The notes beneath the pieces were generated by a model. That model was not told the DNA's origin, ran no database searches, and saw only the letters and a list, made by a program, of their open reading frames with translations. From Hyphomicrobiales bacterium (GTDB lineage: Bacteria; Pseudomonadota; Alphaproteobacteria; Rhizobiales; Rhizobiaceae), in assembly GCA_900466605.1 (NCBI GenBank), contig UBMU01000003.1, positions 248,001 to 312,000 on the forward strand: 64,000 bases of DNA, in the 5' to 3' direction. Numbering within the stretch: the stretch's first letter is position 1; each line of letters begins with the position of its first letter. The position numbers and the translations under genes were made by a program. Positions 32,270 through 34,202 of the stretch are shown here, in pieces.

Positions 32270-33501
32270 CAGAGCAACGACAATTGTTCGGGCGGCGGCT
32301 CGAACATCGTCCTCAGATCCGTTCGGTCTATCAGCCGCCGCGGCGTCCAGCCCTCCGCCGTCACAAAAGCCTGTACTTTCTTGATCGAGACACCAAGCCT
32401 CGACAGGTCATCCAACCGCAGCCTGCGGAAGCGCCGGGCGGAAAGGATTGCCTTTACTGTTTTGGTTCCAAGACCGGGTACGCGAAGCAACCGTTCTCGC
32501 TCCGCCTTGTTTACATCAACTGGAAACTCGGCGCGATGCCCGAGCGCCCATGCAAGCTTGGGATCGAGATTGAGATCCAGCATTCCTCCGGACTGTGCCG
32601 CGGTGATTTCCTCGATCCCGAAGCCATAGAAGCGATATAACCAGTCTGCCTGGTAGAGCCGGTGTTCCCGCATCAGCGGCGGTTTGATCAACGGCAGGTT
32701 CTTCGATGAATCGGGGATTGGGCTGAAAGCGGAATAATAGACCCGCTTCAGGCCATAGCTGCCATAGAGCTGTGCGCTCGTGCCAAGGATTGTGGCATCG
32801 TTTGCGCCGTCGGCTCCAACGATCATCTGCGTGCTCTGCCCGGCCGGAACGAAACGTTTCCGCTTCCTCGACTGGAGCGTCGGCTCCGCCGCCGCTTCTA
32901 TCTTCAGACGCAAGTTCCCCATCGAACGGCGAATGCTCGAGGGCTTTTTCTCCGGCGCAAGGCGCGCAATGCCACTATCCGTCGGCAATTCGATATTCAG
33001 CGAAAGGCGATCCGCGTAAAGGCCGGCCTCTTCAATCAGGTGAGCCGATGCCTCCGGAATGGACTTCAGATGGATATAGCCTCGAAAATTGTGCGTGACG
33101 CGCAGCTCGCGAACAACGCGGACCATCTGCTCCATCGTATGATCTGAAGAGCGGATAATGCCCGACGAGAGAAACAGTCCTTCGATATAGTTGCGCCGAT
33201 AGAACTCCAGCGTCAGCCAAACCACTTCCTCCGCGGTGAAGCGGGCCCGCTCGACATTGCTGGAGGATCGATTGACGCAATAGGCGCAATCGTAAATGCA
33301 GAAATTCGTCAAAAGGATCTTCAGCAGCGATATACACCGCCCATCAGGCGCATATGCGTGGCAGATACCGGATCCCTCGGTAGAGCCCAGCCCACCACTC
33401 GTGGCCGAATCGCGCCTGACGGTTCCGCTGGAGGCGCAGGATGCATCGTATTTTGCGGCCTCGGAGAGGATTGCCAATCGGTCTTTCAGAGACTTTGCCA
33501 T
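32269..33501 (-). CDS. Putative DNA modification/repair radical SAM protein (UdgX-linked)
   Basis: A 410-residue radical SAM protein of the family that travels with UdgX (TIGR03916, rSAM_link_UDG). The [4Fe-4S] cysteines C68, C72 and C75 are in FCIYDCAYCVNRSSS, and the N-terminus is MAKSLKDRLAILSEAAKYDA. The C-terminus has a helix-hairpin-helix DNA-binding motif (LLRVPGLGTKTVKAILSARR). Its reaction is unknown; a DNA lesion is the likely substrate. The ATG at 33501 fits the family N-terminus. A GTG at 33528 would put the SOS box inside the gene. The predicted promoter leaves almost no 5' leader before this ATG. Confidence 0.9.
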   Translation of the reverse strand: MAKSLKDRLAILSEAAKYDASCASSGTVRRDSATSGGLGSTEGSGICHAYAPDGRCISLLKILLTNFCIYDCAYCVNRSSSNVERARFTAEEVVWLTLEFYRRNYIEGLFLSSGIIRSSDHTMEQMVRVVRELRVTHNFRGYIHLKSIPEASAHLIEEAGLYADRLSLNIELPTDSGIARLAPEKKPSSIRRSMGNLRLKIEAAAEPTLQSRKRKRFVPAGQSTQMIVGADGANDATILGTSAQLYGSYGLKRVYYSAFSPIPDSSKNLPLIKPPLMREHRLYQADWLYRFYGFGIEEITAAQSGGMLDLNLDPKLAWALGHRAEFPVDVNKAERERLLRVPGLGTKTVKAILSARRFRRLRLDDLSRLGVSIKKVQAFVTAEGWTPRRLIDRTDLRTMFEPPPEQLSLL

Positions 33502-33507
33502 CCTTAT

Positions 33508-33522
33508 GTTCACTATATGTTC
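33508..33522. promoter_or_regulatory. LexA (SOS) box over the promoter of the rSAM-udgX operon
   Basis: GTTC-ACTATAT-GTTC is an exact match to the alphaproteobacterial LexA operator GTTC-N7-GTTC, established for Rhizobiaceae. On the minus strand it reads GAAC-N7-GAAC and overlaps a TATAGT -10 element (33517-33512). Binding here would block RNA polymerase, so this operon should be induced by DNA damage. Confidence 0.8.
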
Positions 33523-33539
33523 CGACACTAAAAGTCAAG
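33512..33539 (-). promoter_or_regulatory. Probable sigma-70 promoter of the rSAM-udgX operon
   Basis: Minus-strand CTTGAC at 33539-33534 (the rhizobial -35 form) and TATAGT at 33517-33512, spacer 16 bases. Initiation would fall around 33505, only a few bases from the ATG at 33501, which predicts a leaderless or nearly leaderless message. Confidence 0.55.
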
Positions 33540-33725
33540 AATACTCGGGTTTGCGGTCGCTGCACCGCGCCTCCAGGAAGCAGTACGAATTTTATGGAAA
33601 TCAGCGGTAGCGATCTGCTATAACCGTAACAGTTAGGATTGTTGCACGGTTCCGAGGTTCCCCCTCGGGACCTGTTTTCTTTTGTGTCCGCGGCTAAGCG
33701 GATACGGGGAGTGAAGGACAAAAAA

Positions 33726-34202
33726 ATGGTTGATAAGGTACCGATGACGCAGGGTGGTTTCGTCAAGCTGCAGGAAGAACTGCGCTGGCGTCAGCAGGAG
33801 GAGCGTCCCCGGATCATCGAGGCAATCGCCGAAGCCCGCGCCCATGGCGACCTTTCGGAAAACGCCGAATACCATGCCGCCAAGGAAGCTCAGAGCCACA
33901 ACGAAGGCCGCATCAGCGAGCTCGAAGACCTGACAGCGCGCGCCGAAGTCATCGACTTGTCGAAGATGTCCGGCGACAAGATCAAGTTTGGCGCCAGGGT
34001 GAAGCTGGTCGATGAGGACACCGAGGAAGAAAAGACCTATCAGATCGTCGGCGACCAGGAAGCCGACGTCAAGGCGGGACGTATCTCCATCTCCTCGCCA
34101 ATCGCGCGTGCGCTGATCGGCAAGGAAGTTGGCGACTCCATCGAAGTCAATGCACCCGGCGGCTCCAAGGCCTACGAAGTCCTTTCCATTTCCTGGGGCT
34201 GA
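33726..34202 (+). CDS. greA: Transcription elongation factor GreA
   Basis: Rescues backtracked RNA polymerase by stimulating transcript cleavage. It is 158 residues long. The N-terminal coiled coil carries the catalytic acidic tip ([14 protein letters not shown]), and the C-terminal FKBP-like domain ends with [21 protein letters not shown]. The ATG at 33726 opens [19 protein letters not shown], the usual rhizobial GreA start. It is the first gene of the conserved greA-lps block, with lpsB following 7 bases later. Confidence 0.97.

Follow-up and report, generated by a model that had tools for sequence, protein, structure and literature searches.

A conserved SOS box overlapping the predicted promoter of a radical SAM–UdgX operon in Alphaproteobacteria

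Introduction

Two adjoining genes on the minus strand of a 64,000-nucleotide stretch of DNA, here called the window, encode a radical SAM (rSAM) protein and a UdgX fusion protein, and a direct repeat of the SOS-box type lies just ahead of the first gene. Is this operon controlled by LexA, and does its message begin so close to the start codon that little or no leader is left? UdgX activity has been reported for Bradyrhizobium diazoefficiens (PMC10359453), and DUF4130 has been linked, together with SplB-like radical SAM proteins and uracil-DNA glycosylases (UDGs), to the SOS network (PMC3765255). Leaderless mRNAs are frequent in Alphaproteobacteria, with 171 reported in S. meliloti (PMC3616915) and 375 in Caulobacter (PMC4117421).

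Results

The site in the window reads GTTC-ACTATAT-GTTC on the plus strand (33508-33522) and has the GTTC-N7-GTTC direct repeat that defines the alphaproteobacterial SOS box. Read along the minus strand, CTTGACT comes first, followed by GAACATATAGTGAAC with TATAGT inside it, ATAAGG and ATG (Table 1). The preliminary description had claimed an exact SOS box that overlaps a minus-strand −10, with CTTGAC as the −35, and the sequence bears out both points. The promoter elements are spaced as CTTGAC-N16-TATAGT, equivalent to TTGACT-N15-TATAGT. Because of this short spacer, a generic promoter scan limited to spacers of 16–18 nt did not call the window promoter and called a site inside the gene instead. 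Six nucleotides separate the box from the start codon, which is ATG, as leaderless mRNAs require. The message is predicted to carry a leader of 3–4 nt, and downstream of such a start there would be no room for a Shine-Dalgarno site. The sole Shine-Dalgarno-like letters in the window sequence are the AAGG that abuts the ATG, and no such site stands at a working distance.

Table 1. Features of the rSAM–UdgX operon and its putative control region in the window.
Feature	Position	Strand	Basis
−35 element CTTGACT	33533..33539	(−)	sequence; TTG in 79/123 near loci
LexA operator (SOS box) GAACATATAGTGAAC, alphaproteobacterial type	33508..33522	(−)	exact match, orthologue conservation, top-scoring site of the window
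−10 element TATAGT, within operator	33512..33517	(−)	sequence; favoured in box columns of near loci
Predicted transcription start	33504..33505	(−)	predicted about 7 nt past the −10; −35/gap co-variation
ATG start codon, radical SAM gene	33499..33501	(−)	6 nt past the box
Radical SAM gene, TIGR03916 rSAM_link_UDG, 410 aa	32269..33501	(−)	profile score; CX3CX2C at residues 68-75
TIGR03915/DUF4130 domain fused to UdgX (TIGR03914), 486 aa	30809..32269	(−)	profiles; TGATG overlap with the first gene

The first protein belongs to TIGR03916, scoring 575.3 bits where the cut-off is 343.5 (scanned as the longer open frame from 33528). Its CX3CX2C cluster motif is present as CIYDCAYC, and it also shows a sub-threshold helix-hairpin-helix match. 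The second gene carries the UdgX motifs GEQPG (329), KRRIH (381) and HPSYLLR (451); the third has Y in the window protein where the motif given in PMC10359453 has S or A. All 80 orthologous loci encode a UdgX relative on the strand of the rSAM gene, and in 76 of them it is found no more than 40 nt from the rSAM stop codon; the two genes join as TGATG in 47 loci and as ATGA in 17. The alpha/beta hydrolase gene that follows in the window seemingly lies outside the module, since the flanking sequence available for the 80 loci contains a relative in just one case. PADLOC at an E-value of 0.01 gave no match for either the rSAM or the UdgX-fusion protein.

A separate observation concerns the neighbouring greA gene (33726-34202). 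A terminator-like hairpin followed by a T-rich stretch lies about 50 nt before it (33648-33672, plus strand), and by eye a similar hairpin and T-run precede greA in the 26 of the 80 loci that contain this gene. The hairpin is possibly an attenuator or the source of a short leader RNA, for which GraL of E. coli is a precedent. An RNA family search of 33300-33900 returned one chance-level match, and no Rfam family fits the hairpin.

To follow the box among alphaproteobacterial orthologues we assembled three sets of loci. The first holds 80 loci kept from 588 relatives found (81 with the window), the second all 65 over-cut-off matches among 297 genomes of the order, one of which is the window locus, and the third 37 alphaproteobacterial loci, namely 36 new ones over the cut-off (84/398 genomes) and one on an Agrobacterium vitis plasmid. 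An exact box lies upstream of the rSAM gene in 79/81, 60/65 (own locus included again) and 37/37 loci of these sets. Pooling without the duplicate own locus gave 182 regions, 181 of them distinct in the last 60 nt. The preliminary description had proposed to look for the box upstream of the same operon in other Rhizobiaceae; across Alphaproteobacteria, within the last 60 nt, it is present in 167 of the 181 distinct regions, a count that includes related, non-independent genomes and from which only identical 60-nt regions were removed. Control motifs in the same regions occur 0–4 times: the reversed motif 4, spacers of 5, 6, 8 or 10 nt 0–1, the inverted N7 motif 1, the E. coli and Gram-positive types 0, and mononucleotide shuffles 0.3. 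There is no usable exact box in 8/182 loci.

Some loci depart from the common arrangement. In one family, f35 (L043-L045, L047, L049, L051 and L268), the box is oppositely oriented, GTTCATGATATGTTC, and lies some 90 nt ahead of the aligned start; the promoter layout of this family is different. Three loci (L077, L079 and L082) have three exact boxes apiece, upstream of or at the rSAM gene start. Relatives of the rSAM gene also occur on plasmids, in 158 plasmid records, of which 142 are predicted to be non-mobilizable.

The distance between box and start codon is short in most of these loci. Taking the first in-frame start codon, a rule that favours short gaps, we could pair box and start in 174/182 regions, with a gap of at most 8 nt in 129 (128/173 distinct regions once a duplicate is removed). 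Under a stricter rule, requiring the GAAC orientation, an ATG and a box outside the aligned gene, 113/173 regions are near, which leaves out 15 of the 128. The near loci start with ATG in 118 cases and with GTG or TTG in 10, and these 10 are a poor fit to leaderless translation. Near loci are found in 14/23 families by the loose rule and in 10/23 without strict-rule failures, counting the family-labelled set only; several of the families contain no near locus, among them f35 (0/8), f16 (0/4) and f20 (0/4). Gaps above 8 nt occur in 45/173 distinct regions, some with Shine-Dalgarno-like leaders, so leaderlessness is not required for the operon. A TTG stands 7 nt before the box in 7 of the 35 GAAC-oriented loci whose leaders are longer (for example L062), which would place the box between the −35 and the −10.

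Aligning 123 near loci on the box brought out the predicted promoter elements. Box columns 5–10 prefer TATA(A/G)T, and TATAGT is the commonest hexamer (33 loci). Upstream of the box, TTG stands at −18 in 38 loci, at −17 in 8 and at −16 in 33, 79 in total. Its position varies together with the gap to the start codon. With TTG at −18 the gap is 2 in 29/38 loci and 3 or 4 in the others (gaps 2–4 in 38/38). With TTG at −16 the gap is 6 in 22/33 loci and 0, 4, 5 or 7 in the others (gaps 4–7 in 32/33). The window, with TTGACT-N15-TATAGT and a gap of 6, falls in the latter group. Such co-variation is expected if transcription must begin at or just before the start codon, and it supports a transcription start within a few bases of the ATG.

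The strongest competitor to this reading is that the operon is LexA-controlled, with transcription starting well upstream, the box lying in an ordinary leader and LexA blocking elongation or a distal promoter. The short spacer and the failure of the generic scan are in its favour, as are the 44/123 near loci without TTG at −18 to −16 and the families that keep the box although their leaders are longer. Against it, the −35 columns are the main conservation upstream of the box, and among the box-aligned near loci no column from −32 to −19 is conserved. The coupling of −35 position to start-codon gap and the lack of space for a Shine-Dalgarno site in the near group also count against it, and we regard an upstream start as unlikely. 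The interpretation in the preliminary description is supported in part: the geometry behind its near-leaderless start is common to many relatives, but the start itself is predicted and other families have longer leaders.

We then compared the operator outside Alphaproteobacteria, in 30 loci from other classes of the phylum (29 over the cut-off and one on a Caballeronia plasmid). The alphaproteobacterial box is absent from all of them (0/30). Instead, the exact E. coli-type site CTGT-N8-ACAG is present in 20/30 and CTGT-N8-CCAG in 5 more; as the control for these counts, CTGT-N8-ACAG occurs in 0/181 of the alphaproteobacterial regions. The 25 loci with a CTGT site have it −1 to 40 nt from the start codon, 19 of them at 7–17 nt. 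None of the three motifs was found in the remaining 5/30 loci, nor in an Acinetobacter or an Acetoanaerobium locus. This exchange of operators is best explained if LexA control was kept while LexA specificity changed, an argument made earlier for splB (PMC3323433).

For comparison, lexA and recA were located in 30 genomes of the same set by motif-anchored gene location. Boxes lie 21–172 nt from the lexA ATG in 30/30 genomes. Exact recA boxes lie 66–147 nt from the start in 15/29 orientable loci, and the other 14 are without an exact box. In the window's own genome, lexA (G000:C47:39131-39841) has the exact alphaproteobacterial box GAACACATATGGAAC 49 nt before its ATG, and recA has one-mismatch sites only and no exact box. 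These comparisons bear on the idea that a different repressor with a similar direct-repeat site, rather than LexA, binds the box. We infer LexA binding from the type of site, which gives this idea some room. However, the site class switches to the E. coli-type LexA site in loci of other classes, and the same site class precedes lexA in every genome tested, which together make another repressor very improbable.

Slimmer still is the chance that translation begins at an upstream in-frame GTG (33528), which would place the box inside the coding region. The frame is indeed open from that codon, and additional in-frame start codons precede the chosen one in 70/128 near loci; such codons fall within the box in 29 loci and lie upstream of the box in 48. 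But this GTG lies upstream of the predicted transcription start, and in the window a stop codon 36 nt ahead of the ATG closes the frame. Among the near loci the closing stop lies at a median of 36 nt, and within 60 nt in 82/128. Moreover, the start codon stays beside the box where N-terminus length varies among lineages, and the A. vitis record annotates the ATG that adjoins the box.

The bare box pattern is itself a poor guide. The window has 3 occurrences where 2.07 are expected, and in the 6.6-Mb genome the pattern occurs 234 times and its reverse 196 times; we rejected the bare pattern as a measure of the box, since both counts are near chance frequency, and conservation decides instead. 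The AT-rich-end form, GTTC-N5-ATGTTC, occurs 20 times in the genome against 4 for its reverse, and several of its genome sites (these 20, plus three more) lie within long open frames. Two weight matrices were built, the first from 135 orthologous boxes that mostly come from outside Rhizobiaceae, the second from 114 candidate recA/lexA sites. Each places the box at the top for the window (24.7 bits against 9.2 for the runner-up, and 21.0 against 15.3). A further strong box of the same genome lies between divergent open frames (L012, G000:C27:164664-164678). The possibility of a coincidental match, with the operon outside SOS control, draws on the near-chance frequency of the bare pattern, and is negligible beside conservation far beyond the controls and the exchange of operator type in other classes.

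Discussion

We consider it likely that the window holds a LexA-repressed sigma-70 promoter of an rSAM–UdgX repair operon with a near-leaderless message. As long as the cell is undamaged, LexA bound to the direct repeat would cover the −10 and exclude RNA polymerase. After damage, RecA filaments would bring about LexA self-cleavage and the operon would be transcribed. Transcription would begin about 3–4 nt before the ATG in the window and about at the ATG in many relatives, and translation of the (near-)leaderless message would start from the 5′ end with no Shine-Dalgarno site. The DUF4130–UdgX gene would follow through the TGATG overlap. Seen against its relatives, the rSAM–UdgX promoter is, with high probability, a genuine SOS promoter, and its kind is already known.

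We take COG4277 to be the family of the helix-hairpin-helix-containing radical SAM protein of the window, an identity that fits both the sub-threshold match and the gene pair. Earlier work reported a LexA-regulated UDG operon, COG1573–COG4277, from both Verrucomicrobia and Alphaproteobacteria (PMC8565304, which cites Erill 2016 for the former and Paes da Rocha 2008 for Caulobacter). It likewise consists of two genes, is of the uracil-DNA-glycosylase type and is LexA-controlled; the part of PMC8565304 that treats it describes no box-to-start packing or leaderless start. The link to DNA damage drawn in the preliminary description fares in two ways. SOS control of the operon is strongly supported by our comparison of loci, but the tie is not new, since SOS control has already been published for such operons (PMC8565304). 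SOS control has also been predicted for 'splB', a SplB-like radical SAM gene whose LexA site types differ between alpha and beta Proteobacteria; Agrobacterium and S. meliloti are among the alpha species covered (PMC3323433). The 'splB' of that study may belong to the distinct SplB family (COG1533) rather than to TIGR03916.

The predicted start can be set beside mapped leaderless messages. In S. meliloti and Caulobacter the 5′ ends were mapped at the start codon by RNA sequencing, whereas the 5′ end in the window is predicted and its message would carry a 3–4-nt leader where the mapped ones have none. The 171 leaderless starts mapped in S. meliloti use AUG, in part because of how they were defined (PMC3616915). 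Caulobacter CCNA_01391, an early SOS gene with the box GTTCttgttatGTTC (PMC12700426), has a leaderless primary start (PMC4287350), and its likeness to our operon lies in the SOS box and in the predicted start. Among the open-licence literature matches listed, we found no description of a conserved packing of box, promoter and start codon in the rSAM–UdgX operon. The conserved near-leaderless packing, unusual in its geometry, may be a new detail of an operon whose SOS control was already known.

A wider proposal is offered tentatively, and we hold it to be rather doubtful. Operator, −10 and start codon could form one compact block in many alphaproteobacterial families, dedicated to a leaderless SOS message, with other families leadered; translation independent of a leader and a Shine-Dalgarno site might be favoured when cells are damaged. 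Should the near-leaderless start prove true, the operon would be a simple model for asking whether leaderless translation is of benefit in damaged cells, and its leadered relatives would serve as natural controls.
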